Source of the DNA: Enchytraeus crypticus
Taxonomy: Eukaryota; Annelida; Clitellata; Enchytraeida; Enchytraeidae
NCBI GenBank assembly: GCA_905160935.1
Contig: CAJHZI010000424.1
Span: 290,001 to 354,000, forward strand
Direction of reading: 5' to 3'
DNA length: 64,000 nucleotides
The position numbers were made by a program, and so were the translations under genes. The notes under the pieces were generated by a model. That model was not told the DNA's origin. It ran no database searches and worked only from the letters and a program-made list of their open reading frames with translations. Numbering within the stretch: the stretch's first letter is position 1; every line of letters starts with the position of its first letter. Of the stretch, positions 24,814 through 51,362 are shown piece after piece.

Positions 24814-25044
24814 ATGCTGCTACATCTAATGCTAATGCTGAATTGTATCTGCGAGATAAATGGACTAGAGAGGATTATAGATGGAGCCACACTGGTGACT
24901 GACCTGCCACTTGAACCCAGTGACCGAAGGAAGCCGGGACCGGGTCGTTACCAACCTGACTACGAAGACGGAAAGAATAGTCGAGGAAATGAGAGAGAGG
25001 ACTCGTCATCAGTTAACCTGACGGTTCCTGCATTGATCGCTATG
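24814..25044 (+). CDS. PHM: PHM exon 1: signal peptide and N-terminal segment
   Basis: The first ATG after an in-frame TAG at 24778 begins a hydrophobic leader. A charged, Gly/Arg/Asp-rich segment with one NLT sequon follows. Donor ATG|gtatga. Confidence 0.75.
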
Positions 25045-25424: not shown

Positions 25425-28400
25425 TCTCTCTCTCTCTCTAGTGTTCTGTTAAGTAACAGGTCCAAGCTGCATATCCATTTTCGGTGACTGCTTTCACGCT
25501 TCATAGAGAGAACTGCATAGATCTCACTAATCCCTTCTCAAAAGGCTATGACTTATCAGTACCTTATGTAGCCTATAGCTTGCAAAAAATTGGCTGCTGC
25601 AGTGGTTTTCCGTTACCTTCCTCAACTATTGCTTAACCGTCTTTTACGACACGTGCAGTTAACGGTTGGTCTACTCTTCTGTGACCCGGACACAAAGCGT
25701 GAAACAACTCCATCTACCTGAGTCCAGAAACAGACTAAGAATTGAGGTAAAACTCTATCGCGGAGATATTGATTAGATTGTTTTGCTTAGGATGACGAAT
25801 ACATCTGCGGAAGTTGGAGCCTACCACCCGATGAAAACTATATAGGTATGCCATTATTGTATTCTCTTCTATAATTACTTATTTAAAGTATATATCTCTC
25901 CACAGTAATGCCAGTAGGCTCTATTTCATCGGACGCTATACGTACAATTCTTGACATCTTTTCGTGTGTATCTTGAGGCTTTTGTGTCACTCAAAACGAC
26001 CGGTTCAAAGTCGGTATTCAGTCTCGATAATATTTCTATGACGGGTCAATCATTCGATTCAATTTACTTACGTAGTGATCCACAGTCTAACATATTATCG
26101 ATATGGTACCGGCTTAGCCTGCGAAACAAGATGGGACAAGCTTAGACTGTATTATGAATATTGGCTTTTCGGAACGTGCTAAATTATAATAATTTCAAAG
26201 TCGCCCATCACTGACAACGCTTTCGAGTGAGGAAACTGACGTTAACCTTAGCTTTACCAGCTTTACCATGCTTCTCTGCATTATGCCATCTCTTGCTCCG
26301 TAATTTATTGTCATATAAGCGTCGGCACTAATAACAGTAATATTATTTGTAGTAAAAGTAGAATTTATCAATACTAAAACCAGATGTTAACGTCAATATT
26401 ATCTCCGAGGAATATCGGCGACGGACCGGCTCAAGATTTGAATGAATCCTTCACGTTCCGCAATGCAGCCAACCGACAGCCTAGCCGATTCCGCAGTTGG
26501 TTCAGCCAGCTGCAAGTTATAAGTTATAAGTTGTATAACGTATGGTGACTATGGTCTTACCAGACCATAAGTTATAAAATGCTTGCTAAGCTTTTCAGCT
26601 ATACCAGTATATCGCTGTATACTTCAATATCACTTGTGTATGTGAAACATCAATATGAAAGGAAGATGTCAGAAATCTAGAAGCATTTGAAATGAGTTTT
26701 TAGAGTAGGATGAAAAAGAATAGCTGGACCCAAAAAGTTACACATGAAGAAGTCTTAGGGAGAGATGGTACAGATAGACAGTTGATAAATGGTATAAGAA
26801 GTAGGAAGAAGATTTGGAAAGGACACATTCGAAAAGAAAATTGTTTACTACGAGAGGTCATAGGAGCTAGAATGGAAGGTAAAGCTGGTAAAGCAAAGGT
26901 TAACATCAGTTTCCTAACTCGAAAGCGATGTCAGTGACGGGCGAGCCAAAGGATTTGAACCCCGCACATATTGATCCGAGGTCCAGTATCTTACCGACTT
27001 AGCCACTGGCTCCAGTCGGTGGAAAGAACGACAAGCATGGCTATCCGAGATTAGGAATGTTAGATCTTTTAAATATCCACTCGTATGTGGGCATAAAGAG
27101 GACCTGCCAGTAGCCAGTGCACTAAGAGAGAGAGACTTAAGTATTGCTGTATAGCTTTTTGTCGTTTGTATGACCACAGTGGACTTCAGTGTGATTGCAG
27201 GAGGAACGTCTGCAGTCTATATGATGCTGTATGGCTGCAGCGAACCTTCTCAAACTGAGTCGAGCCTCTGGTGCGTGGTATCAATATTTCTGTAGCTTAT
27301 ATTAATTAAAAGCTAAATTAGTAATTAAGTTGTTCCATCGAAGATAACGTAATATCATAGCTCATAAGTTGTACCATAACGTAATATCATAACTCATGCT
27401 TAGAAAATTCTACACTGTGTTTTTATGACTGATACCCCAAATTGTTTTAACAATAAAGTCGTAAGAAGTTGACCGATGTTCTTGAAATTTACAACACGTG
27501 ACCAGCAGCCAATTCTACAAAACATAGAGGAATTTCGTTTACTGATACCCCGAAACAATTTGGGGTATCAGTTATAAAAAACACAGTGTACATGTATGTA
27601 GCTTAATCTTAAACTTGGTATTAGCTGATTGATTTGCCGATTTTAATGAAGAAGGTTGAAGTTTAACCGAGAGCCTTTCTGTGAAGTCTAACTAATTATG
27701 CTGATGTGGCTAAAGCACAACATGCTCAGAACTTGCACGTTTATTAAATTTAATTAATTGATAATAATAATAACAATAATAATAAAGGTTTAACGTCCGT
27801 TTCCTCATACAGGGATGGTGTCAGGGACGTCCCCAATAGCACACATCACTACAGATCAATTCACCCAGACCAATCTGCAAAAGAAATGTGCTGAGGAGAA
27901 GTAAAGAAATATGCTGAGGAGAAGTAAATAATTAATAATTAATTAATTAGAATTTGAAGCTCAAGAGGAGAATTAAGAGAAATACCTTTGAATGAAATAA
28001 CTTAGATATTGGGTAGTTATACCTACACGATTAATCGAAGATGTTATCCGATCATATTTACTCTTAAACAAGCATATAATTTTTTCCTGACTCCGCAATG
28101 TTGTTATATAATGTATTGCAGGAGTGAGTGCAGGCAGGCCTGCAGCAGGGAGACTGTGCCGTTGTTTGGCTGGGCCAGGTACAGCAATCAACACATGTCC
28201 CTGCCATCAGGTATGTCCATGTAGAATTAGCTCTCAAGGCTTTTGTATCACTGCTTTCATATTACATGTTTTTTATAAATTCAAAATCTATATGATAATG
28301 ATCAATGAATTGTTAAATAAAGTTTCACCATTTTTCCGCGGTCGGTAAGATACTCGACGACGGATCAGTATGTCCGGGTTCAAATTCTGGGCTCGCCCGT

Positions 28401-31400
28401 CACTGATATGCTTTCGAGTGAGGAAACTGACGTTAACCTTAGCTTTAACAGCTATTACCAGCTTTATCTCTTTTAGAATAGACAGAATAGACTCGAACTG
28501 TTTCAAAGTATGTTTTCATTAGTTTGCAGAAAATTTAATGTTATCGAAGCCTCAGAATAGACTAGCACCACTTTAATACGATTTATAATCAACATTTATA
28601 CAATGTGTTTTTTTTATAAATGAAACCCCAAAATTGTTTTAACAATAAAGTCGTAAGAAGTTGACCGATGTTCATGAAATTTACAGCACATGACCAGCAG
28701 CCAATTCTACAAAACATAGAGAAATTTCGTTTGAATATCTGTAATAACGTGAAAGTTATAGTTTTGTGAATAGGAGTGGGGTCAGATAAGAAATTTCCAG
28801 TACAGGATTACGGGCATGTTTCATGCATCGTAAAATTATCTCTATAAAATAATAGCAAATACGTCACAAAATTTCAGCTAATGCAATTTTGAAGAGCAAT
28901 CACTTCTTTGCAAAATGACGTACAGTACGTGCTGATATGTTCTTAATTGACAAAGTTATTGAACTTTTAATGCATGCATTGCATGTCTGGGTACAATTGC
29001 TATCACCGCAGCCACTGCAGCGGCGTCCTCTTCTTCGTTTATTCTCTTCATGCAATGAATGCATGAAAAGTTCGATAACTTTGTCAACTAAGAACATATC
29101 AACACGTAGGCCTATTTTACGTTGTTTTGAAAAGAAATGATTGCTCTTCAGAGCAGCATTAACAGAAATTTTATATTGCGTGTTAGCTAGCATTTTTATA
29201 GAGATAATCTACGCTAAATGTAACATTCCCGTAATTCTGTATTGGAAATTTCTTATCTGACCCCACTCATATTCGCGAAACTATAACTTTCACGTTATTA
29301 AAGATACTCAAACTAAATTTCTCTATGTTTTGTAGAATTGGTTGCTGGTCAAGTGCTGTAAAATTTCAAGAACATTGGTCAACTTCTTACGACTTTATTG
29401 TTAAATCAATTTAGGGTATCAGTTATAAAAAACACAGTGTATATCAATATTCTAAGTAATATTGCAGAGATAATGTTTTAATACGTTCGGTTGCAAATAT
29501 GGCATACCATACGTATCGTAGCAAATGTTATAATTTATAACAACGTAAGCTGATTGCCAGTAAATTTAGCTACTTTCTCTCCATTGTTCTACAGTACCTA
29601 ACGGGAGGTCCTAGGTTCTTAAATATTCTGACAGTCTGCATATTCTCTCAAAAAGTAGCAGGATATATAATAACACGTAAATTCCAACATGAAGACAATG
29701 CTTTTAGTAAACTAAATGTAATAATGTTAATTTCGTACATTTACATACATTCGTATATAGATTTTTATCTTCACTGATGTTGCCTTTTGACGAGGATCGG
29801 ACATTAACTTCTTATTGATTGATTGTTAAAACCCCAATATTGGTTTCTAAATTGATCATTTCTATTTTCAGACACTGGTTACGCTATCGGAGGCGACACA
29901 GTTCTGTCATATCTTGTGTTACAGGTTCACTTCAAACCTACAGAATCAGGTATCATAATCATAGTCCAAATTTTACCCGTGTGCAAATTTTACTCACCCA
30001 TCTCGATAACTATTTTCAAACAATCAAATGGCTTTAGTTCATCGAGTCCTTGTGGAACTTTACTAACCTTTAAACCTAAGTTTGCCATTACACCTTTAAA
30101 CTTCTTTAAATTTGCCAACATTTAGCGGTACTAGTTATAAATTTCTCCTTACAGAAATTTATGTATCGTGTTTTTAAGCTGACAATCCTTAGAGCTGTAC
30201 CTAATTATAAATTATTGCATTATTTGGTGTTAAATTTTAAGCATTATTTTGTCAATGGATTAGCTTTGAAATTAGCGATGATTTAACTGAAAATTGAAGT
30301 AAAGTGTCAAATAAGAGGAATTAATAGTAAAAGATTTAACATTTCATTTCCTTGTCCAATGATTATACCAGATAAATTTTCTAAACATTACAGTAATATT
30401 AACTCAGTTAATGTTGGATTTCTCACACTACTCCTCAGCTTCACTTTGGTTTCACAGTTCTCGCTCAATGTTGTCGTAGGCTATAGTAGCACTCTAATCT
30501 AATTATTGTTGTTGTTTGCATAATTCTGAATTAGCCTTTGATAAGAGAGCTGACGATGTCCATTGCTCTCTCTCTTTTGGTGCACTGCCTACTGGCAGGT
30601 CCATGGTACATAACGTCTCCACTCTTCTCTGTCTTCCGCCTTCCTCTTCATTTCCACATATGAGTGGGTCTTTAAATCATCTAACATACCTAATCTCGGC
30701 CTGCCCCTGCCTCCTTTTCCTTCCATTCTACCTTCTATGACCTCTTTTAATAGACCCCCTTAGAATGTGTCCTATCCATCTCTTCTTCCTATTTCTTAAT
30801 ACATTTATCAACTGTCTATCTTTGCCAACTCTCTCCAGGACTTCCTCATTTTTAACCTTTTGAGTCCAGCTAATCCTCTCCATTCTTCTCCAAATCCACA
30901 TTTCCAATGCCTCCAGTTTCCTAATAACTTCCTTCCTTATGGTTCATGTTTCACATCCTTGCAATAGCGTGGTCCAAACTAAAGTTTTCACTATCTTTAT
31001 CTTTGTGTCTTTCTTTAGACTTTTTGTTAATAGTTCTTTTCTACTACCAAAGGACGCTTTTGCTTGTGCAATCCTACTGCATATTTCTCTCCCACATTTC
31101 CCATCATCGGTTATAGTCTGACCCAAATAATTGAAACTCCTTACCTGTTCCAATTTCGTAAGGAGTTTCAAATATTTGGGTCATACTATAACCGATGATG
31201 GAAAATGTGAGACAGAAATATGCAGTAGGATTGCACAAGCAAAAGCGTCCTTTGGTAGTAGGAAAGAACTATTACCATTGCTATTTAGTGATATTAATTT
31301 GTTGCATTTTTTTAAAAGTATAACGTATGAGGGAACGGACGTTAAGCCTTTATTATTATTATTATTATTGTTATTATTATTATTATTATTATTATAAATT

Positions 31401-31444: not shown

Positions 31445-34400
31445 CTACTTTGTAGATAAGTGTGACTTTTGCTTGATCTCTGGCTTTACTATCGATTCAG
31501 CGACCAGGAATTGCCACATATATCTGCAGAATTTATTGATAAGAGCTTAAATATCACATAGTACACAGGCTACAAGTGTGAAAATAATTAATGCCATAAA
31601 CATGCACATGTACATGTGAATTATTCAGTGCTTTATTGTTTGTAGCATTTACAACAACAGAAGATGCTGAGGCTGGTTTTAAGGTTACAGTAACGCCAAT
31701 GAGGTTACTAGTTTCTTCTGTTTCAGCAATCTATCCTGCATCACTAACCTCTGTAGTCTTCAACATTTCACGATAATTTACCTCTAGCCTATAATCTTCA
31801 ATATTTCACGATGCATAACCTCTGTAGTGTGCAACATTTCACGATGTTTCACTATAAGGAATGTTATTTGATAGGACAGTGAAAATTTGTCTTTCCACAT
31901 GAATTCTATAGAAAATAATTTATTGTAAAATGTGGACAGAGAGGCTAACACATGCGTCTATATTTTCCAATGAAGTTTCATTTAAGTAGTAGTTTTAGTC
32001 GCAATAGTAGTTTTATTTCGATCACGCCTGCACTGATCAGGGTCTAGTGATAACAATTGGCCAATAAATTTTAATATTGATTTGAATTTTTTACTTTAGT
32101 TTAGTTAAAAAAATGAAGTCAATTAATTTAAGTAATTAAGTTAATTTAAATCATGTTTTAGGTTTAGTCGTGAATTAAAGCATTCATAACCTCATATATC
32201 ACCTCCATACAGCTCTTATATCATCTCCATACAGCTCATATATCACCTCCATACAGCTCATATATCACCTCCATACAGCTCATATATCACCTCCATACAG
32301 CTCATATATCACCTCCATACAGCTCATATATCACCTCCATACAGCTCATATATCACCTCCATACAGCTCATATATCACCTCCATACAGCTCATATATCAC
32401 CTCCATACAGCTCATATATCACCTCCATACAGCTCATATATCACTTCCATACAGCTCATATATCACTTCCATACAGCTCATATATCACTTCCATACAGCT
32501 CATATATCACTTCCATACAGCTCATATATCACTTCCATACATCTCACACCTCCATACAGCTCATATATCACTTCCATACAGCTCATATATCACCTCCATA
32601 CAACTCATATATCACCTCCATACAGCTCATATATCACCTCCATACAGCTCATATATCACTTCCATACAGCTCATACATCACCTCCATACAGCTCATATAT
32701 CACCTCCATACAGCTCATATATCACCTCCATACAGCTCATATATCACTTCCATACAGCTCATATATCACTTCCATACAGCTCATATATCACTTCCATACA
32801 GCTCATATATCACCTCCATGTAGCTCTTCGGCGTCACGTGTTTCGAAGAAGTAATTTACTGACTGTTTTTTATTAAGGCCTAAATATACCATTGGCTTGT
32901 TCGTAACGGAGCCGGAAAAATTGAATCTCCCTGCTGGAAAAACAGGTAGGCCTACTCAATTTTTATAGCGTCGTCATGAACATAGATTAAAAAATCGTTA
33001 CGGGTTTTGATGATGCCTTATCGTTGAAGCGCTAGATATTATAATATAACTGATGATGATGATGTGGGTTTAACGTTAGCCTAAGGTAGTAAACCCAAAG
33101 GGCTTCTATTCAAGACAAAATTGCCAAGCCTATATAACATACAGTAGATCTGTATCACTTAGATGTGTATTGGTTTAATAGCATTAACATAAAAACTTAA
33201 ACTGGACATTAAATTTTTGAACATAATTTTACTAGATATTTCTCAAGTAAGTGTTTTTAATGTAGTATTTACACACGTTAGTATTAAAATTTAACGAAAT
33301 TAATGAAGACCTTTGAGAAGAATTGTTGTTGAGATTTAATTAAAGTCTACATTTTAGCTGACATGGTGAATTAAACTGAATTAGAGAAAATACAATAAGA
33401 GTTGTCCATCAGATGTCAGCAGCTTGTTGCCAGCATAAACCTGAGAAATGGAATCGATTTAAAACACGTAATAGCGACCTGTGGTCGCAGGTTGGCTTAG
33501 TCTAATGGTTACTTCGTTCATTAATCAACAGAAAACTTGATTATTAGCTGGCCTATAGCCGGCATAGTGGGTTCAAAGCCCACTGTCTCCAAACCAAAGA
33601 CGCAGTCCAACCTTTTGCCCTTTTTTCATGATTTATATTGTTCAAAATTAAGAAATATGTGTCAACTTGACTTATCGCTGAATGGTTACTTCATTTCTGA
33701 AATTATCATGAAATTTTAACTAGCGTTTTTATTATAAATTTAGCGAACTGATACTTCATTTCTAAAATTATTAAAATTTATTTAAATCTGATCTTTATTA
33801 GGCAGAAGTTAAAAATGAAATTAATAAATAAATAAATAAAAGCTTATATCGCTGTTAATGTTCTTTTCTCATATATCGTGTTAATCTTTAAGCAGATCCG
33901 CATTTAATATGGAGGGTAGAATGCCCGGGCGTTATTTTTTTTAATTTGTAGCTAATAACTAACCCTATCCCTAACCCTAAAGCCTAAAAAGTGAGGCGAG
34001 CGGCAATCGAACTTAGGACTCGACTCAAATTGCATAAGATAGATAAGATGTGCCACCTCTTCCCTGATTAACATTCATTCAGACATGCCAAGATTGAATC
34101 ACAATTAGAAATCAATTTCACGATGCCTAGAAAGCTACCGTTACTTGAAGAGCCAAAATCTTCATTTGAGCCGCGGATTGCCAGACCACTCAGCCTACCT
34201 GGCTAGAGCCAGTGGCGAGATCGGTAAGATATTCGACCGCGGATCAGATGGTGCGGGTTCAAATCCTGAGCTCGCCCGTCACTGATATCGCTTTCGAGTG
34301 AGGAAACTGACGTAACCTTAGCTTTTTTAGCTTTACTTTGCAACTATACTGTGGCCATAACACGACAAAGAATTGTGACTCGATGGTCATTTTATATATT

Positions 34401-36197
34401 GAATGGCTGCTGAAGCTACTTGCTTATGCAAAGTTTTTGTAGCATATGATTGAGCACTGCAATCACTAATTTATGATGTGCTACACTATTTTCATGACGT
34501 AGGACTGCGATGTCCCATGCATGGTTCAGATCCAGTGCCGGCCCGCTACTAATATGCGCTCGAGGCAAAGCCTATGGTTAAAACGGTTTTAGTCTTCAAT
34601 GACAATTAAAAATAGTATACATTGCTGGAAGCATAATTGTATATCTGTGCTATGTGTGCAGCTGTTCACGCAGACGTTACCTGCAGGTTTGAGGAATCTC
34701 TTCCTATTCATGGCTTCGCCTTCAAAGTCCACACCCATCGACTCGGTCAGTTCACCATTTGACTGCTCGGTGTTGACTTTGATGCTTCTTCTTCTCTTCA
34801 TCTCTCTTTCTCTATCTCTATCTCTCACTCTCTTTATCACTCTTCTCTCTGCCTCTCTGTCTCTTTTTCTGACTGACTCTCTCTCTCTCTCTCTCATTCT
34901 CTCTTTCTCTCTCTCTCTTTCTTTATCACTTTTCTCTCTGTCTCTCTGTCTCTGTTTTTGTCTGTGTCTTTCTCTCTTTCTCTCTCTCGTTCTATCGTTC
35001 TCTCTCTCGTTCTATCTCTCTCTCGTTCTATCTTTCTCTTCCTATCTTCCAATATCAGTTAATCCTATCACAGAGGATAATTAAGCCCTTCTTTGTAATC
35101 TCGCTACCATCTCTGTAGTCGTTTATCTCCTCTGTACGGTATGAAACTGCTGATTCATTAGCCAGTGATAAGAGTCTCCTTGTCGTTTTCAGACCTTGGC
35201 GCACTGTATAACTGAGAAACTACCTACACCATATACCTTTGCGACGTAATGTCTTACTTTCTTCGTTAATCTCTACCAGTGAACCTTAATTGTTAGAAAC
35301 GTCTGGGTTTTAATTTTGTTCCTTGAGCTTTTATTCCCAGTAGTTAATTGATTTAACTGATACGTTATTAATTTAACGAGCTCTAGATTTATGGTTCTAC
35401 ATGTCAAATTATTAAATTACTGTCTCTATTTATAAATATAATCAATAATAATACCAATTTTCTGATTTCATAAGCTATATATGTACATATTACTGAAGTA
35501 ATATTTTTATGATTGTATGTTTAAAATAATTATGGACTGCTATCAGGTCAAGTGGTAACAGGTTACCTTGTCAATCGACGGGGTAACTGGACACTAATAG
35601 GACGCAGTAACCCGCAATGGCCTCAGGTAACGTACCGCTGCTATTTGCTGTTCTGTAAACTTTTAGTGTTTCATTAGTGATAGACAAGACTTTGCTTTGA
35701 ATCCTAAACTTTCTAATCATCATACGAAAGCTGACTGAACAAGCCTTGGGGTGTGCGGCGCTGATTTAATGAAATAAGATTATAACAATACAGGAGCTGA
35801 ATGCGTCTCTCAGTTGTTTTATAAAAGAAAGGGGTTGATAGAGAGAGGAAGAAGAAGAAGAAGAAGAAGAAGAAGAAGAAAAGCAAGACACATAGAAAAT
35901 GAATGACAAAGAAAATGAATGAATGACAAAGACAAAATAAGATAGTATAATGTTGAGAGAAAAATATATAAGCACAATGAGTTGGTTTCCATGCACTTAT
36001 GGAGCACCCAAGCATAAACTATATTGTTACCATGGGAAACTAAGTCATAATCTTTTTCTTTTTCCTTCGAAAAGTAGACATAATTTTATGAGTGTTTAAT
36101 GTGAAGCCATTGCTACGCTTTAAATCTGTTGTGAGGAGTTCATCTGTAACAGATCCTATTACAATTTCTATTGAGATACATGTTACCAGCGTTGATA

Positions 36198-36234
<37 letters not shown>

Positions 36235-39200
36235 CAGAGAGAGACAGAGAGAGTGAGAGAGAGAGAGAAAGAGTGAAACTGATAAAAATATTTTGACCTG
36301 TTTAACTAGTATATCACTCACTATATGTTAATTATTAATGTTTTTCTTATTTTCAAGGCTTACTATCCAACTGCAAATAACTTGACAATTTCAAAGGGAG
36401 ACTATCTGGTGAGTCAAGCCAACTATCTTATAGCTTTTGTTTATAAATCAAGAAATTTTGCTAAGTTAATACCATTCTCGTCATGTACAAGCCACACACT
36501 TAATTTCCATTTTACTCTCTTCCAAATGAAGTCTTTAAAGTAACATCGATATCTACTATGTTTTATATAATCTTCAACGCTATTTAATCTACCAGAAATC
36601 GCTATTTTAGCCTCTATGAATTAATGACTTCGTTGAATACACACAAATTTGCAGACTTACAAAAATCTTAATTTAGGCTATTAGCTTTAGTTAATCTGGT
36701 TTCTGGGGTGGTTTTCAGTTGCGTTTCTCAGTTTTGTTCTAGCCCACCTCCTTGTGCACACTATAAATTCGCGGTCTATTATTCTGTAGTCCGGATACAG
36801 CACTAGTAATATAAGAACACAATGTTGATAATGAATATGGCAGTGCTCATAGGATATAGATACATGACCCTGCAGGGGTCCAAGGTACATATTTAAACAA
36901 ACACATGCAATCAAGCTCTGGCATAAACACTGCGTCTGTCAATGGAATTTAATTATAAATTGTAAATGCCAATAACTTTCTAAACTACGCCAAAACTATT
37001 AAAATAAAGATTCTGAATGATTTCATTCTATCATTAATAGTACCTTGTATAGTGGGATCTTTTCGAAACCCGTACCGTTTTCAGTTTTTGTATTTAAAGT
37101 TTCCTTTCAAAATCGCACGAGAGTTAAATTAGTTATGTGACATGTATATCATTTTTTTATCTGTAAAATATTTCTATGTATTTATATAAATATTTATTAA
37201 ATTTTATATTAAATTATATTATTTTTTAATTTAATACATATTTTTAATAATTTTTATTTTGTATTTTTGTGTGTATTTAATTTGATGTATTTACTTCTCT
37301 GAAATAATCTCTGCATATAATCTCTGCGTGTCTCTGTATTTTATCTCTACATTTCTATTGGTCAGGTGACGCGGTGTACCTACGATACGTCAACAATTAG
37401 TCGTCGGTTAAAAATCGGGTAAGAAATTTTAACTAGAAACTAATTTAATCATATTCCTGAGCAGCTTTCCTCTGATAAGAGTTTTTATAAGTAGTTGCAT
37501 AATGCTATGTGGCTATATCACTATGGTTATGGTTATGTCACTTTTGTGACTTATGTCACTATGGTTGTGATTGTGTTACTATGATTATAGTTATGTCACT
37601 ATGGTTATGGATATTTCACTATGGTTACGGTTATGTCGCTATGGTTATTGTTATATATTCGCCATTTTATTTCGCCACTTGGGCAAAGAACACACATTGC
37701 ATAGTGAAACAAAATCAAAATCAAAGAAACAAAATGCAAATACACAGTGAAAAGAAAATTGAAGCAAATAAACAAAACTAATAAACGAAAAATATGATGT
37801 GCACATCAGGCTTTCTCTATATCATTATGAAGATATATTCAACCTCACAATTTTTCAAAATGAGCGTTTAATGTATTTCTATAGTTATTCTCAAACAAAA
37901 TCGTATCAGTTTTAAACATATTTGGTAATCTGCATATATCATTCATTACTAGATACTTACTCAGCGTCCTTAACATGTTTTCTGATCCTGAAATAGATTC
38001 TAAGAACGACATTACCTTTAAAGCATACAGTTGTAGCATTAGTTTGTATCCCATAGATCTATACAGTTAGCATTATTTTATGGTTATATCGCTCTGGTTA
38101 TCGTGACAATCATTGTCAATATGGTTATTTTTTTTTGCAAAATCACCATATATCGTTATGGGTGGATGGGTTAGTGAACGAGCCCTACAATCTACTGTTA
38201 AAAGTAGAGATGGGAATCGAACCGAACCCGAACCGAATCCTAAAATCTAGAATTTTGACCGAACCGAACTCGAACCCAGACTCTGATCGAACCCGAACCG
38301 AACCCGAACCCAGACTCTAGCCGAACCGAACCGAACCCGAACCCAGACTCTGGCCGAACCCTAACCGAACCCAGACTTCGTCCAAACCGACCTGAACCAA
38401 ACTCTTGTAGTTCCTTTCTTCTTCACCAGCCTGACATTAAATAAAGATAGTAAGAACAATATATATATATTTATATATAAATATATATTAGTTTTTGCAT
38501 TTACATGTCTTACAGTATCTAACAGCATATATTCAGGCAAGGCTTGTTCCGACACAAATTTTAAAATTGTAGCGGTATAAAGGAATGGTAGCGGGAAGCG
38601 AGACGGGCCTACAGAAGATAATGGATAGTCTGAATGATACGGCATTGAAATATGAAATGAAGATTAACATCAAAGAGACAAAAGTGATGAGAGTATCCAA
38701 TAAAAATATGAAAATGCTTGACTCAATCTAGGAGGATTTGTTCTTGTTAAATTCAAATTATGAATTTTTTCTAATTTTTGTGTGCTACTTTAATATTTTT
38801 GCAGCCAGATTTATAAATAATTATATATAACATTCTATATGTGTTAAGGCTTTCTGGAGTAAAAACATTGCACCATGGCAATACAATAATTTCATTACTA
38901 TTTTCGTAACTTCACAATTGATCTGAGAGTTTAAAATTTGAAACCCTAAGGTAAATTATGAAGCTTATTACTGGTCAGTAGATAGCAAACGATGTATATT
39001 ATGATCATTTTTCTATAAAAGTACACGTGTTTACTAAATCATCTTTATTTGACATTTTTGTGTTACTAAATTGCACTTTGTCTCTGAAATATTGGATCAA
39101 ATTTTAGCCAAGACATTTCTACTTAATTATAAACGTATCTAATATATAGACCTATAGTGACAATAAAAATTTAAAAAATGAAGAAGCATTCTATTTGCTC

Positions 39201-40210
39201 GTTATAATCAAGGAAAATATTTCAGATACAATAATAAAGCTAATTATCTATATTATGAACATTTGTTGGTCAACTAGCAATATTTTAAGAAATGTACAGG
39301 AATAAATACCACTTCTCTCTTTTTTTCATTGTCATATTTTTACCCAGGTGAAAAAATGTGGCAGCTATTATGACTTAATTAATTTTTAAGCATATTTACC
39401 ATAAACATGTCTGTCATAAAACCATTTCGAACTGGAATCGAACTCTTGCGAGTTGGAAAGCAAGCCGAACCCGAACCCTTGTTAGAACCGAACCCGAACC
39501 GAACTTTCATTTCAACGAGCCGAATCGAACCGAACTCTCAAATTGTCAACTGCTAACCGAACCCGAACCGAACTTTCGTTTTCAACGAACCGAACCGAAC
39601 CCGAACTCTGGAAATTCATAAAATTCCCATCTCTAGTTAAAAGTTCTTATGGAAATATTTTAGAAAATGTCTAATTTGAAAATTATTCCATTTCATCGAA
39701 ATATTCCAGTTTTTTTCATTTGATTCAATCTATATTTATGAATTGCTTTATTATCAATTGATTCAACCAAGTTCTAACTTCTACATAGTCATGAACGACG
39801 GAACCACTGTTGTGTTGTTTATGTTGTAGAATGAGAGCTGAAGACGAGATGTGTAACCTCTATATGCTGTACAGAACTAATTCTACAGATGGCGCAGGTT
39901 ACTACTCCTGCAAGGGCAACAACAACGCCAAGCTGCTGGACAACATTCCACAAGACTCTGACAAGCCTCCACCTGTCAATCGACTTCTGGAGCAAACAGG
40001 CGGAGAGAACAGGCCTCTGCAGCGGTCCAGCGCTCCCTCAAACGATCAGTATGTCGGTAAGTGGGGACTCAGTTATGCTGCGCGTCAATTGAACGAAGTA
40101 AAGCCACGTTGCAGCGGTTAGTAAATTGTGGACGAAAACGTTGGAAGCCCCCGTGTTGACAGTTTTGAATGTAAATAATCCTCGGGGTGTTGGAGGTTAT
40201 TCTTATATAT

Positions 40211-40251
<41 letters not shown>

Positions 40252-43200
40252 TATATCCTCTGCGGAGGCCCAGCGGTCCCTCAAACGATCTCGGTAAGTA
40301 TCTAAACAAACAAACCTCAAACGATGTCGGTAAGTATCTAAACAGCATTATGGCAATATTATTATGTAGCATTAATAATACTAAGTAATGCCATGAGAAG
40401 GAGAGAAATATGCTTTATTTCATTACATTTCAACTCGACAACAGAACCGTTACCAACAGCAAACGAAGGCGTTCATGCAAACAGTGAAAAATCAGTGTAA
40501 CCAAAAATACAAAGGTAAATATTACGAGTACATGTGCCATCAGCGAATGCACACAGTATTTTTTCTAGCTGAACACCATTCCATACTTGCATTATATTAT
40601 AATAAAAGTAACACGGTTAAAGATGTACTGTAAACCATGTAAAAGTAAGCAACTTCGGGTTGAGGTTAGTACTTGGATGGGCGACAACCTTGGAAGACAG
40701 TGTGTTGATAGGATTGAATAGAAAGCCCAGGATGTTGGATCGTTACTCTTAATACGATTCGACCAAGGCACTACGCTTCTTTATTCATTTCATATAGGCA
40801 ACTATTACTAGTAATGTTAAACTTGAAATGAGTCGAGCTTTAAACTAATTGATTAATTATTTTAATTAAGTAATTACGGGAGGAAAGCACGAAACAAGTT
40901 ACAAAAATGTCGGCAAAGTAAGCAAGGAAACTATAATATACCTGCGTCGGTCAAGTGCGTAGCTAAAAGGAAAAATAAAAGAGTAATAGATTTTATTTTA
41001 TTTTATAGATTTTTTATTTATGATACGTTTAGCGACACATTTATAGCTACATATTTTTCGTTTATTTTATAGCGACACATTTCGTTAATTGACAAGTCAC
41101 TGCATTGCAATTGAAATAAAAGAAAAAAACTGGCGAGAATAGATTTATTTATTTGTTGATTTGATTCAGACTCTCAACGAGTATTCAGACCGTCATTGCA
41201 GCGGAGTTCCAATAGAAATCCATCAAATGGTTATTACCCCAGTATTCGTGGTTCAGGACGTCTCGGGGAAAACCCGGAAACATACCCAAACTATCCGGAA
41301 AGACGCTACAATTCGGATTTATTATCAAATCGAAGGCCGGGATTCAGACCAGAAGAAGACAGGCTGCCGAATTCGGTAGATACATCGGTTAGGCGAGGCT
41401 ACAAGCAGACCGAGATGAAGGCAGGCGGGAGATTTAATTCTGGGTATAACTCAGAGGATCCCGTGAACAGCGACTACTACGAGAGTGTGTCCAACGAGAG
41501 GTCCAGGCATCGAGGAGTCGCGGTAGCTTCTGGAAAATCCGAAGATTCTGGAAAGATAAGTGTGATCTCTACCAAACAGCCTCAGCTCTCGGTTGGACAT
41601 GAGAATCCTTCAACGACAAAGATCAGTGGCGCACAGAAGATTGAGTTAAAAACAACGTCGAAGATTTCTGGTTGGTAAATCTTAATAATTCCTACCTACA
41701 ATTTAAGGAAAAATTTCAGTGGTCAAATGGTCTGCAAATAGTCTAGAAGGAATTACTTGTTATGTAATTGGCGAGTCTTAAATAGTTCACATGTTGTGTC
41801 TTACATTAAATAGTTACACCTGGGTGTGTCACATTAAATAGTTGCACTTGTTGTGTCTCACTGTTGTGTCTGACATTAAATAGTTACACCTGGGTGTCTC
41901 ACATTAAATAGATGCACCTGTTGTGTCTCACATTAAATAGTTACACCTGTTGTGTCTCACATTAAATAGTTACACCTGTTCTGTCTCACATAAAATAGTT
42001 ACACCTGTTGTGTCTCACGTTAAATAGTTACACCTGTTGTGTCTCACATTAAATAGTTACACTTGTTGTGTCTCACATTAAATAGTTACACCTGTTGTGT
42101 CTCACATTAAATAGTTACACTTGTTGTGTCTCACATTAAATAGTTACACTTGTTGTGTCTCACATTAAATAGTTACACCTGTTGTGTGTCACAATAAATA
42201 GTTACACTTGTTGTCGCTCGCAGCAGCACGTGATCGATTGATCCTTTATTATTCGTTTAGTAATATATTGTGGAATTTGAGATAAAATGACCCTTGTCAG
42301 TACACATCATTTTAATGATTTATTGAAATTTATTTATTATATGAATTAGTAATAATTAACTGATTGAATAATAATTGAACTAGAATGAAAAGGAACACAT
42401 TGCATAATATCGTAATATGAATGTGATGTCACGCAATAAAAAAAATTTCCGATATGGTATTTCGATACATATAATCTGATACTAAAAAAGGTATTTTAGA
42501 ATTATATGAGAGAAATATGATTCTTTTTATTTTAGTGTTAAAAAACACGTGTACATGTGACACATGCAATAGACCTTCAAACAAGGTACATTGGCATAAG
42601 ATGTATTGGCATCTAGTTGGCCACTTTAAAGTTTTTACATACAAATTCAATAAATAAATTAATATAATATAAAATGGTTAATAAAATATAAAATGTTTAC
42701 AAAAAATAATCTATAACTCCTGTGTCACATGTGTTTTGAATTATATCCATGCAGAGCCTGTTTCCAGCCCAGGAAGTTCCCATCCTGTCACATCCACTTC
42801 ACCTCCACATCCCGTCACTGATGGAGAGGCGAGTGAATCCTCAGAGACTCTGAGTGACTTCAGCTCTTCCTTCATCATCATGTCCATCCTCGTGGTGCCC
42901 CTTCTCGTCATCCTCTGCGTCACCATCGTTCTCAGGATCAGAAGAAGTGGTAAGAAGTGGAAGATTATACCTCTGACTATTAGTCCTTATGCAACTGGTG
43001 TCAGCTAAAGGAAGCCATTAAAATAGGTGCAAAAGAAGTTTATGGCTTTCTTAAAGCAAATACAGCTAAAAAACCTTGGATCACAAACGAGATGCTTGAC
43101 AAACTGGATGAAAGGAGGAAATGGAAAAGTATTGACACCAGTCATGGCCGAAGGATATATAGATGCTTAAACAGTGAACAGGATAGTTTTCTCAGGGATT

Positions 43201-46200
43201 GGCGCCCCCCGCCCGGTAAATTTCAGTCAAAGCTGAGGAAGGCATAGGGGGCCCACCTCGTCAAAAAGCATATCCTCCAAGAAATAAAGGCATATCACGA
43301 CAAAAATGAACGCCCCCAGTCCCGTGCACCCCTTAAATGGGGAGGGGGTGGTAAGAATTCCACGGCCAGACGGCACCTTGTGTGTCCCACAGATATACCA
43401 AGAGGACATTCCATGCGCCCTAAAAGGATAAGTGTGGGCACATGGAATGTGAGAACTATGAGTGAAAGGGGAAAGTTAGAAAATGTAAAGAGGGAAATGG
43501 AGAAAGGGAAAAAATGTCCTAGGGATGAGTGAAGTAAGGTGGCTGGGAACTGGAGATTTTATAAGTGATGGGTACAGGGCTATATACACAGCAGGAGATA
43601 AAAGGGAGAAGGGTGTGGCTATGATATTGGATAGAAATTTAAGTGAACGAGTAACAAAGGTTCTTCAGTGCAGTGACAGACTGATGTTAGTGCGGATCAA
43701 AGCAGATCCAGTAGATTTGGTGTTTATCCTAATCTACATGCCTACATCAGCCTCAGAGGATGAGGAAATTGAAGCGATGTACGAAAAAATAGAAAGTGAT
43801 TAAAGGAGAAAAAGCCACAGATTAGTTGATAGTTATGGGGGATTGGAACGCGGTGGTGAGTGAAGGGAGAGATGTAAATGAAGTTGGGGAATATGGTCTA
43901 GGAAAAAGAAATGAGAGAGGACAGAAATTGGTTGACTTTTGCAATAGAATGAGATTAGTGGTGTCCAACACTTGGTTCAAGCATGAGAAGAGAAGGCGTT
44001 ACACATGGAAGAAACCAGGAAGCACCGGAAACGAGGGAAGATACCAGTTGGACTTTATTCTGTTAAAGCAACGGTACAGCAATAGTGTGAAGAATTCAAG
44101 GGCCTATCCAGGAGCATTAATTCAGACCACAATCTAGTAATGGCAAAAATAAGGCTCCAGTTGAAGAAAATACTTAAGAAGAGAAGCAGTAAGAGATGGA
44201 ATTTGAAAATTGGAATGCGGGTTCTTTGCGAAAGAAGCTTAGAATACGGAAATGACGTTTTTGTATGCTTTTTAGACTTCGAGAAGGCCTTTGACAGGAT
44301 TGATAGGATAACGATGATGAATATCTTAAAAAGAATAGGAATTGACCGGAGAGATAGAAGACTAATTTTGACATTGTACATGAATCAAAGAGCACTAGCC
44401 AAAATTCAACAAGAATACTCAGAAGAAGGTGAAATAGGACGTGGAGTAAGACAAGGTTGCAGCATTTCGCCGCTGCTGTTTAACATTTACGCTGAGGCAA
44501 TGATGGAGGAAGCCATGGAAGACTTGGAAGAAGGAATAAAAGTAGGTGGGAATTTGTTACAAGATGTACGATTTGCAGATGACCAAGGAATGGTAGCGAG
44601 CAGCGAGATTGGATTTCAGAAGACAATGTATAGGCTGAATGATACGGCCCTAAGATATGGCATGAAGATTAATATAAAAAAGACCAAGGTTATGAGAGTG
44701 TCCAATAATAAAGGTGAAGTTAATATCACAATAAATGGTACGAAATTGGAACAGGTAAGGAGTTTCAAATATTTGTGTCATACTATAACCGATGATGAGA
44801 AATGTGAGACGGAAATATGCAGTAGGTTTGCACAAGCAAAAGCGGTCTTTGGTAGTAAAAAAGAACTATTAACGAAAAGTCTAAAGAAAGACACAAAGAT
44901 AAAGATAGTGAAAACTTTGGTTTGGACCACGCTATTGTATGGATGTGAAACATGGACCTTAAGGAAGGAAGATATTAGGAAACTGGAGGCATTGGAAATG
45001 TGGCTTTGGAGAGGATTACCTGGACTCGAAAGGTTACAAATGAGGAAATCCTGGAGAGAGTTGGCACAGACAGACAGTTGATAAATGTATTAAGAAATAT
45101 GAAGAAGAGATGGATAGAACACATTCTAAGGGGGGATGGTCTATTAAAAGAGGTCATAGAAGGTAGAATTGAAGGAAAAAGAGGCAGGGGCAGGCCGAGA
45201 TTAGGTATGTTAGATGATTTAAAGACCCACTCATATGTGGAAATGAAGAGGAAGGCGGAAGACAGAGAGGAGGGGAGGCGTTATGTACCATGGACCTGCC
45301 AGTAGGCAGTGCACTAAGAGAGAGAAAGAGATGCTACTGGATGATATCAAGGATAATACTGTATTCGTTTATTATATGAAATCTGACAAACCGCAGAAAA
45401 CTTACAAACTTACAAACGTAGAATAAATTGATAATAGAAAGTTCAATAGTAACAAAAATTCTACGATAAAAGCCTAATAAGGGTCTTCGGTAAAAGTCTA
45501 TATATAACATTCTAATTATGAAGAGCTTATCCATCAAAGGAGAACGTTTAGATTGTAATGCAAGGAGAAATGTTCCTGGAAAAACAACTTTTGTAATCTG
45601 CTCTCTCGCTTAAATATAATTATTGTGTAGATGTTTGCCATTTCTATTTATATGTTTATTGTATTTATATGTTTATTTGACATAAATGAAAATTTGTATT
45701 TTCAAATAGAATAACATAATAACTGGCATAGTAAATCAGTTATCAGACGTCCTGATAATTCAAATATTCAGAGCTTTGATCGTCTGATTTCATATTTCGT
45801 CAGATTTTTAGGCCTGTGTGCTCACAGGCCAACAGATGACGTGATAAGAGGGGCCATAGTTCACTAAAAAGAGTATTTGTAATAGAAAGAGTGTTAAGGA
45901 ACTTTATGTTAACTTTATGTTACATAATTTATGTTATTTTAGTTTGATATCCGGATTCATACTCTATGAACGCTGCATTCCTCTTTGTTGTTTAATTATA
46001 TCAGGTAAGATTCGCTGGCTGCTGATGAACAGGCGGCACGGTTCAGGGCCGGTTTCATCGATCGTAGGAGGCCTGATAGCCGGCAGTCAGCCGGGTCAGA
46101 AGAAGCGACGACACCACGGCGTGGACAAGGGCCTAGGGAGGCTACTGGGACCTGGAAATGGGAAGAAGGAAGAGCTGGAGTATCTGCAGAATGGCGAACA

Positions 46201-46261
46201 ATACAGTGATAGCGAGGTTGATATGGACGACTGTAGAATTATGCCAAATCCACCCGCCTGA
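24814..46261 (+). CDS. PHM: Membrane-anchored PHM-like monooxygenase (15 exons, 698 aa)
   Basis: Exon lengths sum to 2097 bases in one frame, with GT/AG borders and matching phases throughout. PHM is the copper enzyme that hydroxylates C-terminal glycine of secretory peptides, the first step of alpha-amidation. Order: signal peptide (MLLHLMLMLNCICEI); first copper domain (DDEYICGSW, MMLYGCSEP, GWARY, IGGDTVLSYLVLQVHF); second copper domain (KVHTHRLG, GNWTLIGRSNPQWPQ, DEMCNLYMLY); a 166-residue Arg/Asn/Ser-rich linker exon; one transmembrane helix; a basic then acidic cytoplasmic tail. No PAL lyase domain is present. The CuM ligands (two His of HTH, Met of DEMCN) and the third CuH histidine (QVHF) are kept. 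The HHM motif of the CuH site reads VYM, and the substrate-contact Arg before VHTH is Lys. It may be a pseudoenzyme or have altered chemistry. Confidence 0.92.
25075..25210 (+). repeat. tRNA-derived sequence in PHM intron 1
   Basis: GGTTCGAAACC is a perfect B box inside a TTGGTTCGAAACCATTG stem-loop. An A-box-like TGTGTGGAGCGG lies about 70 bases upstream. It is followed by GTAAATTTCAGTCAAA, also present in the RTE 5' leader at 43216. Confidence 0.5.
25378..25715 (-). repeat. SINE-like family D
   Basis: Reading the minus strand: TGTGTCCGGGTCACAGAAGA, then ACCGTTAACTGCACGTGTCG and a GAGGAAGGTAACGG block. The end reads CTTGGACCTG...AACAGAACACTAG, then (AG)n (the CT tract at 25378-25440). The 3' end parallels the RTE end. 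Confidence 0.7.
25791..25845 (+). CDS. PHM: PHM exon 2
   Basis: Encodes DDEYICGSWSLPPDENYI, matching the first Cys strand of PHM (TYxC near the domain start). Confidence 0.85.
26195..26270 (+). repeat. SINE family A, 5'-truncated
   Basis: TCGCCCATCACTGACAACGC, then GAGTGAGGAAACTGACGTTA and the CAGCTTTACC tail. Confidence 0.75.
26380..26512 (-). repeat. Diverged SINE family A
   Basis: Reverse orientation; TTAACGTCAATATTATCTCC and GGCGACGGACCGGCTC correspond to the family 3' half. Strongly mutated. Confidence 0.5.
26690..27145 (+). mobile_element. RTE-like LINE 3' end with nested SINE
   Basis: Encodes SWTQKVTHEEVLGRDGTDRQ and the REVIGARMEGK block. It is interrupted at about 26885-27022 by a minus-strand SINE A, then resumes with PRLGML-like sequence and ends CCAGTGCACTAAGAGAGAG. 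Diverged, so older than the other copies. Confidence 0.82.
26885..27022 (-). repeat. SINE family A nested in LINE
   Basis: Complete-looking copy: GGTTAACATCAGTTTCC, then TCAGTGACGGGCGAGCC, GGATTTGAACCCCGCAC (B box) and the ccactggctcc 5' end. Confidence 0.8.
27201..27270 (+). CDS. PHM: PHM exon 3: altered CuH motif
   Basis: Encodes GGTSAVYMMLYGCSEPSQ. The family has xxHHMLLYGC here, so both His ligands are replaced by Val-Tyr while MLYGC is kept. About ten residues expected before the motif are also absent. Confidence 0.88.
27413..27588. mobile_element. Short TA-flanked MITE
   Basis: 176 bp. Terminal inverted repeats CACTGTGTTTTTATGACTGA and its partner continue into TACCCCAAATTG, with TA at both borders (Tc1/mariner-type target duplication). 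Its left 125 bp match the left end of the element at 28601, so it is an internal-deletion relative. Confidence 0.8.
27782..27905 (-). repeat. Retroposon 3' end, family B
   Basis: Reverse complement of the block at 4475-4615: GTTTAACGTCCGTTTCCTCA, then GTGTCAGGGACGTCCCC and the CAGACCAATCTGC segment. An (AAT)n-like tail lies at 27762-27785. Confidence 0.75.
28122..28210 (+). CDS. PHM: PHM exon 4
   Basis: Encodes WSECRQACSRETVPLFGWAR then YSNQHMSLPS, matching the ILYAWARNAPPTSLP block. Two Cys are kept for the domain disulfides. Confidence 0.88.
28336..28467 (+). repeat. SINE family A
   Basis: Includes GTCGGTAAGATACTCGACGA, a B-box region (CCGGGTTCAAATTC), GAGTGAGGAAACTGACGTTA and a CAGCTATTACCAGCTTT tail. 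Confidence 0.8.
28601..29439. mobile_element. Long foldback DNA transposon, TA target site
   Basis: 839 bp that is almost one palindrome. Arms of nearly 400 bp flank a centre of about 60 bp near 28990-29045, with TA on both sides. No transposase is encoded. The open frames on both strands mirror each other because of the palindrome. It lies in PHM intron 4. Confidence 0.85.
29775..29825 (+). repeat. Retroposon 3' tail, family C
   Basis: GATGTTGCCTTTTGACGAGG, then ATCGGACATTAACTTC and TTATTGATTGATTG. Diverged. Confidence 0.5.
29872..29949 (+). CDS. PHM: PHM exon 5: third CuH histidine
   Basis: Encodes TGYAIGGDTVLSYLVLQVHF, matching FRVGGETGSKYFVLQVHYG. The His of QVH is retained. Confidence 0.93.
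30560..31400 (-). mobile_element. Chimeric hairpin retroelement, copy 2
   Basis: Minus-strand counterpart of 5221-6050: RTE 3' end at 30570-30600, RT sequence back to 31126, a hairpin loop near 31143, an inverted RT arm to about 31275, then a linker and GGGAACGGACGTTAAGCC with (TTA)n. A 75-codon frame with the same non-consensus LLQGCET end occurs in both copies. Confidence 0.87.
31646..31703 (+). CDS. PHM: PHM exon 6
   Basis: Encodes TTTEDAEAGFKVTVTPM, parallel to the KDCSGVSLHLT strand. The Cys expected in KDCSG is absent. Identified mainly by position and phase. Confidence 0.75.
32195..32822. repeat. 22-bp minisatellite, about 28 copies
   Basis: Unit CTCATATATCACCTCCATAC plus AG. Blocks of ACCTCC and ACTTCC variants alternate in runs. 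It ends 55 bases before PHM exon 7. Confidence 0.96.
32878..32945 (+). CDS. PHM: PHM exon 7
   Basis: Encodes PKYTIGLFVTEPEKLNLPAG, the strand linking the two copper domains. It begins 58 bases after the end of the 22-bp minisatellite. Confidence 0.8.
33490..33600 (+). repeat. tRNA-like sequence
   Basis: TGGCTTAGTCTAATGGTTA resembles a tRNA 5' half. GTGGGTTCAAAGCCCAC makes a perfect T-arm about 70 bases later. The distance and poor acceptor pairing argue for a tRNA-derived repeat. Confidence 0.45.
33950..34200 (-). repeat. tRNA-Leu-like repeat with telomere-like edge
   Basis: On the minus strand, GTAGGCTGAGTGGTCTGGC resembles the 5' half of a class II tRNA. AAGTTCGATTGCCGC resembles a B box about 160 bases on. 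The far edge holds CTAACCCTATCCCTAACCCT. Confidence 0.4.
34203..34336 (+). repeat. SINE family A, near full length
   Basis: GAGCCAGTGGCGAGATCGGT (A-box region), GTGCGGGTTCAAATCCTGAG (B box), CTCGCCCGTCACTGATATCG and GAGGAAACTGACGTAACC. Confidence 0.82.
34495..34590 (+). repeat. Diverged SINE family A
   Basis: GGTTCAGATCCAGTGCCGGC, CCGCTACTAATATGCGCTCG and a degraded GTTAAAACGG tail, in the same order as the family. Confidence 0.4.
34662..34745 (+). CDS. PHM: PHM exon 8: CuM histidines
   Basis: Encodes AVHADVTCRFEESLPIHGFA then FKVHTHRL, matching DISCHYKNYPMHVFAYRVHTHHLG. Both CuM His are present; the Arg two residues before the first is Lys. Confidence 0.93.
34790..35045. repeat. CT-rich low-complexity tract
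   Basis: (TCTCTC)n with GTT/GAC interruptions starting about 45 bases after PHM exon 8. Open frames here are composition artefacts. Confidence 0.9.
35547..35626 (+). CDS. PHM: PHM exon 9
   Basis: Encodes QVVTGYLVNRRGNWTLIGRS then NPQWPQ, closely matching KVVSGYRVRNGQWTLIGRQS-PQLPQ. Among the strongest matches in the gene. Confidence 0.95.
35848..35882. repeat. (GAA)n microsatellite
   Basis: About eleven GAA units in PHM intron 9. A (GA)n tract of about 70 bp follows at 36198-36268. Confidence 0.95.
36358..36408 (+). CDS. PHM: PHM exon 10
   Basis: Encodes AYYPTANNLTISKGDYL, matching AFYPVGHPVDVSFGDLL. Confidence 0.9.
37366..37418 (+). CDS. PHM: PHM exon 11
   Basis: Encodes VTRCTYDTSTISRRLKI, matching AARCVFTGEGRTEATHI. 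The donor GG|gtaaga restores IG at the junction. Confidence 0.88.
37495..37655. repeat. 18-bp minisatellite
   Basis: Copies of TTATGTCACTATGGTTAT with variants in PHM intron 11. A few stray units occur at 38075-38130. Confidence 0.8.
38205..39635. mobile_element. hAT-type non-autonomous transposon
   Basis: 1431 bp. Perfect 13-bp terminal inverted repeats (TAGAGATGGGAAT) and a perfect 8-bp target duplication GTTAAAAG at 38197-38204 and 39636-39643. Both ends carry subterminal arrays of CCGAACCCGAAC-type hexamers, a usual feature of hAT ends. No transposase frame. An RTE fragment lies inside. Confidence 0.9.
38583..38714 (+). mobile_element. RTE-like LINE fragment inside hAT element
   Basis: Encodes GMVAGSETGLQKIMDSLNDT, then KYEMKINIKETKVMRVSN, parallel to 44586-44705 but diverged. 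Truncated at both ends. Confidence 0.85.
39830..40056 (+). CDS. PHM: PHM exon 12: CuM methionine
   Basis: Encodes MRAEDEMCNLYMLYR, matching SSDEMCNLYIMYY, with the Met ligand and the Asn and Tyr substrate contacts intact. It then continues through YYSCKG and a Pro/Asn-rich segment into the linker. Confidence 0.94.
40080..40208 (+). repeat. 5S rRNA-derived SINE, diverged
   Basis: GCGCGTCAATTGAACGAAGT through GTTAGTAAATTGTGGACG, then GTGTTGACAGTTTTGAATG. It aligns along its whole length with 59350-59475. It starts about 20 bases after the donor of PHM exon 12 and ends at a (TA)n tract. Confidence 0.65.
40630..40720 (+). repeat. 5S rRNA-derived sequence
   Basis: AGTAAGCAACTTCGGGTTGA, then GGTTAGTACTTGGATGGGCG, closely matches the 5S internal control region (A box and C box). 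The 5' half of 5S is missing and the 3' end diverges, so it is a SINE or pseudogene and not a working gene. Confidence 0.75.
41170..41670 (+). CDS. PHM: PHM exon 13: disordered linker
   Basis: 166 codons rich in Arg, Asn, Ser, Gly and Tyr (e.g. NPSNGYYPSIRGSGRLGENP), with no recognised domain. Phase matches both neighbours. It takes the place that the PAL domain occupies in bifunctional PAM. Confidence 0.85.
41790..42215. repeat. 29-bp minisatellite
   Basis: About fourteen copies of ACATTAAATAGTTACACCTG plus TTGTGTCTC in PHM intron 13. Confidence 0.93.
42755..42949 (+). CDS. PHM: PHM exon 14: transmembrane helix
   Basis: A Ser/Pro/Thr-rich stalk, then a hydrophobic span (SFIIMSILVVPLLVILCVTI) stopped by LRIRRS. 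It resembles the PAM membrane anchor in layout. Confidence 0.9.
43010..45330 (+). mobile_element. RTE-like LINE, longest copy
   Basis: APE endonuclease: TWNVRTM, SEVRW and MGDWNAVV motifs spread over 43435-44130 in broken frames. The central connector and RT N-terminus are deleted near 44205. RT then runs 44206-45080: FVCFLDFEKAFDRI, GRGVRQGCSISPLLFNIYAE, DVRFADDQGMV. The C-terminus is 45040-45305 with KRGRGRPRLGMLDDL (AT-hook-like) and WTCQ-stop. It ends CAGTGCACTAAGAGAGAG. It has at least four frame breaks besides the deletion. Connector-like sequence (KPWITNEMLDKLDERRKW) lies upstream of the endonuclease at 43020-43160. Sits in PHM intron 14. Confidence 0.9.
46005..46261 (+). CDS. PHM: PHM exon 15: cytoplasmic tail
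   Basis: Begins KIRWLLMNRRHGSG, then a KKRRHHGVDKGLGRLLG basic stretch and an acidic YSDSEVDMDD segment before the stop. The last codons, including TGA, are shared with the first unit of the 25-bp minisatellite that follows. Confidence 0.88.
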
Positions 46262-47940: not shown

Positions 47941-48219
47941 TAAGAGTTATTAAATTTACCCTATTGTGGACGTTATCTTCGCTGTAGATTAGACTTTGAT
48001 CTATCGATAGTATAGTGTACTGAACTGATCCTTGCCCTCATTCACTCATATTGTACATCGATCGCACGCACACGTCTTGAATCGTTCCGCTTGACTTAAC
48101 ACTAGTGATACCTGTGTATATTGCCTACTCTATATCTGTGATCACCTGCCGTGTGTGCCGTCTACCACCTTATGCTACACTTAATACTCTCCTATTATAA
48201 AATAAGTAATGAATAAGTA

Positions 48220-48987: not shown

Positions 48988-49220
48988 GCCACTAATAATT
49001 TAATTTTTCTGGGTTTTTCTTATACATGTACATATCGATTGACATTATCTATTAAAAAATTGCGTCAAATAATAATATTTATAAATTTTAATTATGCTTC
49101 AGTCGAAACCAGAGTTTATCTATTAGCTCTACCAACAAATTAGATATTAATAAAATTGATGACTATATTGTTAATCTATGTGACTCAAGATATGTTACCC
49201 TGGATGAATGCAAGTCTTTT

Positions 49221-50459: not shown

Positions 50460-50535
<76 letters not shown>

Positions 50536-50539
50536 CATA

Positions 50540-51241: not shown

Positions 51242-51362
51242 TCGACATTTCACTCTTTATAATGGCTTGTAATTTTAATGGTTTAATTAACGATGATTTT
51301 ATCAGTAACTCACATAGGCCTTTATTATAGGCCTTTATTCACCAGAGGACTCTAATAAACTA

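Follow-up and report, generated by a model that had tools for sequence, protein, structure and literature searches.

What does a copper monooxygenase of the PHM family do once two histidines of one of its metal sites have been replaced and the reading frame around them has stayed open? This question is raised by a gene in the window, a stretch of 64,000 nucleotides from the annelid Enchytraeus crypticus (GCA_905160935.1, contig CAJHZI010000424.1, positions 290,001 to 354,000 of the forward strand) that was analysed as a whole and whose numbering is used throughout. The initial annotation of this DNA had described a PHM-like protein lacking the CuH His-His motif and had suggested either a pseudoenzyme or changed electron-transfer chemistry.

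Results and discussion

A 15-exon gene with a PHM domain and a membrane anchor

Exon junctions were joined by hand with homology as a guide. The resulting plus-strand model (24814-46261) has 15 exons and 700 codons with no internal stop, and all 14 introns are bounded by GT-AG. The gene had earlier been called intact at 698 codons; its open frame stands, and the count is corrected to 700. The predicted protein consists, in order, of a signal peptide, a PHM domain, a linker, a transmembrane segment and a short tail. C583, named in the list, is a PAM-type family member from the same genome, described below.

24814..25044, plus strand: exon 1, with a putative ATG start, the hydrophobic signal peptide MLLHLMLMLNCICEI and a propeptide-like stretch; the frame is open to a phase-0 GT donor, and hydropathy peaks at residue 1
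25791..25845, plus strand: exon 2, DDEYICGSWSLPPDENYI, where the PHM core begins; aligned with DDDYMCTQWDLPAEDLYL of C583 and SDTYFC of rat
27180..27270, plus strand: exon 3, the CuH exon, with Val-Tyr at 27215-27220 replacing His-His; acceptor corrected
28122..28210, plus strand: exon 4
29872..29949, plus strand: exon 5, YLVLQVHF, holding the third CuH His (H172) and Q170
31661..31703, plus strand: exon 6
32878..32945, plus strand: exon 7
34662..34745, plus strand: exon 8, FAFKVHTHRLG, the CuM His pair, with Lys at the rat R240 position
35547..35626, plus strand: exon 9, GYLVNRRGNWTLIGRSNPQWPQ
36358..36408, plus strand: exon 10
37366..37418, plus strand: exon 11
39830..40056, plus strand: exon 12, DEMCNLY (the CuM Met), where the PHM core ends and the linker begins
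41170..41670, plus strand: exon 13, polar linker; open frame with phase-1 junctions at both ends
42755..42949, plus strand: exon 14, transmembrane segment IIMSILVVPLLVILCVTIVLRIRR; hydropathy 3.16, similar to the transmembrane segment of the C583 PAM
46005..46261, plus strand: exon 15, putative cytosolic tail (basic, then acidic) with a TGA stop; phase-1 junction after the transmembrane exon, as in C583

Other features of the window lie within or beyond this gene. Intron 6 holds a tandem array (32200-32830) of roughly 22-base units (CTCATATATCACCTCCATACAG, read by eye), open in three plus-strand frames. Long open frames at 43248-45302, in the last intron, and at 48217-54269 have by eye the look of a non-LTR retrotransposon endonuclease/reverse transcriptase. 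Downstream of the gene, a mostly non-repetitive, acidic open frame of 424 codons (60809-62080, plus strand) is perhaps part of a neighbouring gene.

The complete protein matched PF03712 at 111 bits (cut-off 23) and PF01082 at 45.2 bits (cut-off 30), placing it in the copper type II ascorbate-dependent monooxygenase fold (PHM/DBH). The PF01082 score had been 35.7 bits before exon 2 and seven codons of exon 3 were added, two changes that were made together. When a 280-residue version was compared with PDB, 14 distinct sequences matched; 13 were PHM or PAM (best E 8.9e-48), and the remaining one was dopamine beta-hydroxylase (E 1.1e-9). The double jelly-roll fold is treated in the part of PMC8812541 used here.

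Val-Tyr replaces the CuH histidine pair

Exon 3 reads ...VDFSVIAGGTSAVYMMLYGCSEPSQTESSLW on the plus strand and includes GGTSAVYMMLYGC in the frame that runs through the hand-joined exons. We aligned the protein to a rat PHM sequence that agrees with the PDB match rows. At H107 and H108, the adjacent CuH histidines of rat PHM, the window gene has Val (GTC, 27215-27217) and Tyr (TAT, 27218-27220). The third ligand, H172, is kept (QVHF); positions 107, 108 and 172, each His in a PHM enzyme, therefore read V, Y and H. All three CuM ligands are retained in HTH and DEMCN, namely M314 and the two histidines that we take to be H242 and H244. Both alignment and exon reading thus bear out the initial annotation in its central points, the loss of the CuH pair and the integrity of the CuM site and of the third CuH histidine.

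Elsewhere, Y79, Q170, N316 and Y318 are kept relative to rat PHM; R240 is Lys and M320 is Leu. R240 is presumably the arginine that engages the substrate carboxylate, and we likewise assume the roles of N316, Y318 and the other functional positions. On these assignments the peptide contacts R240/N316/Y318 read K/N/Y, with one conservative change. Seven of nine scored cysteines are present (C81, C114, C131, C227, C293, C315 and C334); C126 aligns one position off, and neither the window gene nor C583 has C186.

The start of exon 3, previously placed at 27201, required revision. The exon probably begins at 27180, the likely acceptor (27179/27180) lying 21 bases, or seven codons in the same frame, upstream. 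The residues added, VDFSVIA, align without gaps to rat IDFKPRA and C583 VEFEAVM, and also without gaps to the sequence of C642, a second family member. With the third in-frame acceptor, an AG at 27214-27215, the exon would start at 27216, where G+TC gives Val and is followed by Tyr (read by eye). Since exon 2 ends in the single G of a split codon, all three in-frame acceptors yield Val-Tyr, and the assertion that Tyr occupies the second His position whichever acceptor is used holds.

Could misassembly, an error in sequencing or an overlooked His-His exon account for the substitution? CAYCAYATG has no match in any plus-strand frame of 25791-28400. The sole plus-strand match to CAYCAY followed by YTN in that interval lies at 28326 (CACCATTTT), inside the next intron. 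No alternative or missed His-His-Met exon was found in 25791-28400 on the plus strand, nor among frames of at least 15 residues on either strand across the window. To turn CAY CAY into GTC TAT without disturbing the frame, three or more bases must change, and exon 3 matches the assembly once, with no second copy; a single miscall is thereby ruled out. Neither of the two events named at the outset as fatal to the observation, a His-His-Met exon within the regions searched or a single sequencing error at the site, was seen. Together with the gap-free alignment of exon 3, these results make an artefact extremely improbable; as far as can be read from the DNA, Val-Tyr is not an artefact.

Family members with intact His-His motifs

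The genome (524 Mb, 802 contigs) bears the marks of an annelid. A mitochondrial contig piece carries, in order, ND3, ND2, COX1, a tRNA with anticodon GTT and COX2 (protein genes identified by eye), which fits annelid gene order, and PF16915, the annelid erythrocruorin (haemoglobin) linker domain, matches five times above its cut-off. Odorant-receptor searches found no match here or in the control genomes and so carry no weight on an insect origin. We searched this genome for other members of the family. These searches score best candidates only, so further family genes are possible. At least seven other genes were found (C642, C583, C359 and four on C460), six of which keep His-His; C368, a weak match (E 0.218) with stops, was left out of the count. 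C642 is a PHM with HHM for which no lyase was found. On one strand of C583, about 20 kb carry PHM exons with HHM, followed by PAL exons, a transmembrane exon and a tail-like exon; this gene is read as a bifunctional PAM from its genomic exons, one stretch of which is unreadable. The second PHM with HHM that the annotation had advised looking for is thus present, both as the C642 PHM and in the C583 PAM. Bifunctional and monofunctional amidating enzymes have been reported within one genome in scorpions and crustaceans, according to the part of PMC6669573 used here, so their coexistence is not new.

The remaining genes, members of the wider family, have HHL (C359) or, on C460, HHM in three of four and HD in the fourth. 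The latter, one of four tandem copper-monooxygenase genes (C460:220868-221029), reads FVHDIIVYGC, and its sisters read MHHMLVYGC or MHHMLVFGC; this His-Asp adds another altered CuH site to that of the window gene. In C583, the beginning of the DEMCN exon is partly repeated twice (TNDMCNLYVIY and KDEICNFYVIY), immediately ahead of the exon chosen for the PAM model.

A PAM paralogue that lacks a detectable lyase

In the PHM part, all 11 exon starts compared, at hand-set junctions, have the same intron phase in the window gene as in C583; ten of the C583 phases were printed, and the eleventh (phase 2) was obtained from summed exon lengths. Six of ten complete exons are equal in length (window/C583: 55/55, 91/88, 89/83, 78/78, 43/52, 68/68, 84/84, 80/77, 51/51, 53/53). 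C642 merges some exons that the window gene keeps separate.

The membrane anchor provides a further point of comparison. Between the transmembrane segments of the window gene and C583, tblastn gave E 7.7e-6 in about 174 kb with filters off, and only 7 of 5000 shuffles of the C583 segment within its three zones scored as well, which argues for homology with the anchor of a PAM-type gene. The cytosolic tail matches in position and phase; its similarity was reached by 124 of 1000 shuffles against C583 and 67 of 1000 against the rat tail, and is not significant.

In a four-sequence tree, the window gene paired with C583, and rat with C642, with support of 0.893. The branches of the window gene and C583 are the longest in this tree, so long-branch attraction is possible. 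Raw identity of the window gene is highest to C642 (39.9%, 87/218), followed by rat (36.6%, 93/254) and C583 (35.3%, 89/252). Given this ranking and the long branches, the case for PAM paralogy rests on the introns, the anchor and the tree. Taken together, the shared intron phases, the similar transmembrane segment and the tree identify the window gene, at the level of sequence, as a diverged, coding-intact paralogue of bifunctional PAM.

A bifunctional PAM carries PAL after the linker. None was detected here: queries with rat PAL and C583 (its later PAL part only) gave no match below E 0.4 across the window and the 40 kb that follow it. Fragments resembling PAL are present on C111, C454, C391 and C583 of the same genome. 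Neither the PAM-type anchor nor the missing lyase had been mentioned in the initial annotation.

Probable consequences of losing CuH ligands

Studies of rat PHM bear on what the loss of CuH ligands would mean. The portions of PMC6123673 drawn on here describe H107A, H108A and H172A each as inactive and, elsewhere, as having "dramatically reduced activity". When neither citrate nor extra copper was supplied, crystals of all three mutants lacked CuH; H107A kept its usual CuM coordination, and in citrate one H107A molecule of the two did carry copper at CuH (PMC6123673). Given this occupancy and the wording on reduced activity, a damaged CuH is not always empty or fully dead. By analogy, the window protein is likely to have lost monooxygenase activity: with two of three CuH ligands gone, it should be a one-copper protein that lacks this activity. 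Lacking these ligands and a detected PAL, it probably no longer makes amidated peptides.

As to the two outcomes first proposed, the pseudoenzyme finds support in the loss of two CuH ligands, Lys at R240, the absence of a detected PAL, the intact gene and the His-His PAM and PHM elsewhere in the genome. Changed chemistry gained no positive support and is disfavoured by the inactivity of the single His-to-Ala CuH mutants of rat PHM.

A non-enzymatic function of PAM in granule formation is backed by experiments in mouse heart cells, one a knockout and one with a dead mutant made in the laboratory (PMC8793981; PMC10886904, in the parts consulted). There, inactive PAM (Met314Ile) brought proANP content back near normal in PAM-deficient atrial myocytes. 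The proposal is that PAM serves as a cargo receptor, binding proANP through its luminal domains; its tail is a routing determinant (PMC8793981; PMC10886904). The window protein may have a comparable carrier or sorting role. In the mechanism that we favour, a PAM paralogue would have lost PAL and two of three CuH ligands and retained the PHM fold, the CuM site, the anchor and a short tail. Its signal peptide would direct it into the secretory pathway, where, as a type I protein, it would reside in the membrane of the Golgi or of granules; it would bind at most one copper firmly, at CuM. As a one-copper protein cannot supply the second electron, peptidylglycine would not be hydroxylated. The luminal PHM domain could then hold peptide or propeptide cargo, with anchor and tail directing trafficking. 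Such a sorting role fits best, because the luminal fold, anchor and tail are kept while both activities have been shed. On balance we consider the gene most likely to encode a natural monooxygenase-dead, lyase-less, membrane-anchored PAM that acts non-enzymatically, holding propeptide cargo for granules.

More tentatively, catalysis may after duplication have been left to the intact PAM and PHM while the window copy dropped lyase and CuH and kept only membrane-bound cargo sorting, so that the two jobs proposed for mammalian PAM would sit on separate genes in this animal group; we regard this scenario as possible but doubtful. If the cargo-holding reading is true, a natural PAM that has shed both activities and preserved fold, anchor and open frame would support the granule role on independent evolutionary grounds, and that role could be studied separately from amidation.

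Alternatives to a cargo-holding role

The strongest competing account, though an unlikely one, is a different non-enzymatic role, as a copper/ascorbate sink, a decoy for glycine-extended peptides or a regulatory partner of intact PAM or PHM. Retention of CuM and of some of the substrate pocket is compatible with such roles, as is the presence of His-His PAM and PHM in the same genome; we found no experimental precedent for them, whereas the cargo role has one.

Could the gene instead be decaying, having only recently fallen out of use or expression and not yet acquired a stop or frameshift? A decaying copy would be expected to show changes such as the missing PAL and CuH ligands. However, 15 open exons and usable splice sites persist although the gene and its PAM paralogue have diverged far, to about 35% identity, and HTH, DEMCN and seven scored cysteines are retained. 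Comparison with C583 shows differences at codon positions 1, 2 and 3 in 125, 98 and 168 of 252 codons, counts that reflect both lineages; random codon pairs differ at 0.74, 0.74 and 0.75, respectively. That position 2 differs less than position 3 also speaks against decay. Among 500 neutral, substitution-only simulations run to 50% identity, none was stop-free (mean 8.7 stops, minimum 2). The codon-position comparison and the simulations are both compatible with a recent loss of function, and we judge decay improbable overall.

About equally improbable is a one-copper or rewired oxidase in which CuM remains active and CuH is unused or rebuilt (with H172, Tyr108 and another residue), with new chemistry on the bound peptide. 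Tyrosine can bind Cu(II), and all CuM ligands, Q170, N316 and Y318 are retained. The occupied CuH of H107A with citrate also favours this idea, but each single CuH His-to-Ala mutant of rat PHM was called inactive (PMC6123673), and here two ligands are lost and R240 is Lys.

Comparison with known systems

Cargo holding by a catalytically dead PAM remains our preferred reading, and it can be set beside what is known of the family. No natural PHM or PAM pseudoenzyme was found described in the open-licence literature that was searched. Like bifunctional type I membrane PAM, the window protein has a signal peptide, a PHM domain with its CuM site, a linker, a single transmembrane segment and a short tail; unlike it, no PAL was found, H107/H108 are Val-Tyr, R240 is Lys and M320 is Leu. 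With monofunctional soluble PHM (scorpion PHMm, Drosophila Phm and C642) it shares a single PHM domain and the absence of a detected lyase, but it differs in having a membrane anchor and tail and in having lost CuH ligands, C642 having HHM.

Rat PHM H107A, H108A and H172A, as described in the available portion of PMC6123673, resemble the window protein in that a CuH ligand is gone and CuM stays. Those are single laboratory changes; in the window protein two ligands are missing and position 108 is Tyr. The closest parallel in proposed function is inactive PAM/Met314Ile, the proposed proANP cargo receptor, for which propeptide storage was seen (PMC8793981, in part). Both are membrane-anchored, monooxygenase-dead forms of PAM, in the case of the window protein by prediction. 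PAM/Met314Ile, however, was made in the laboratory, is altered at CuM, was studied in mouse atrium and still has PAL; the window gene carries a natural CuH change with putative cargo binding.
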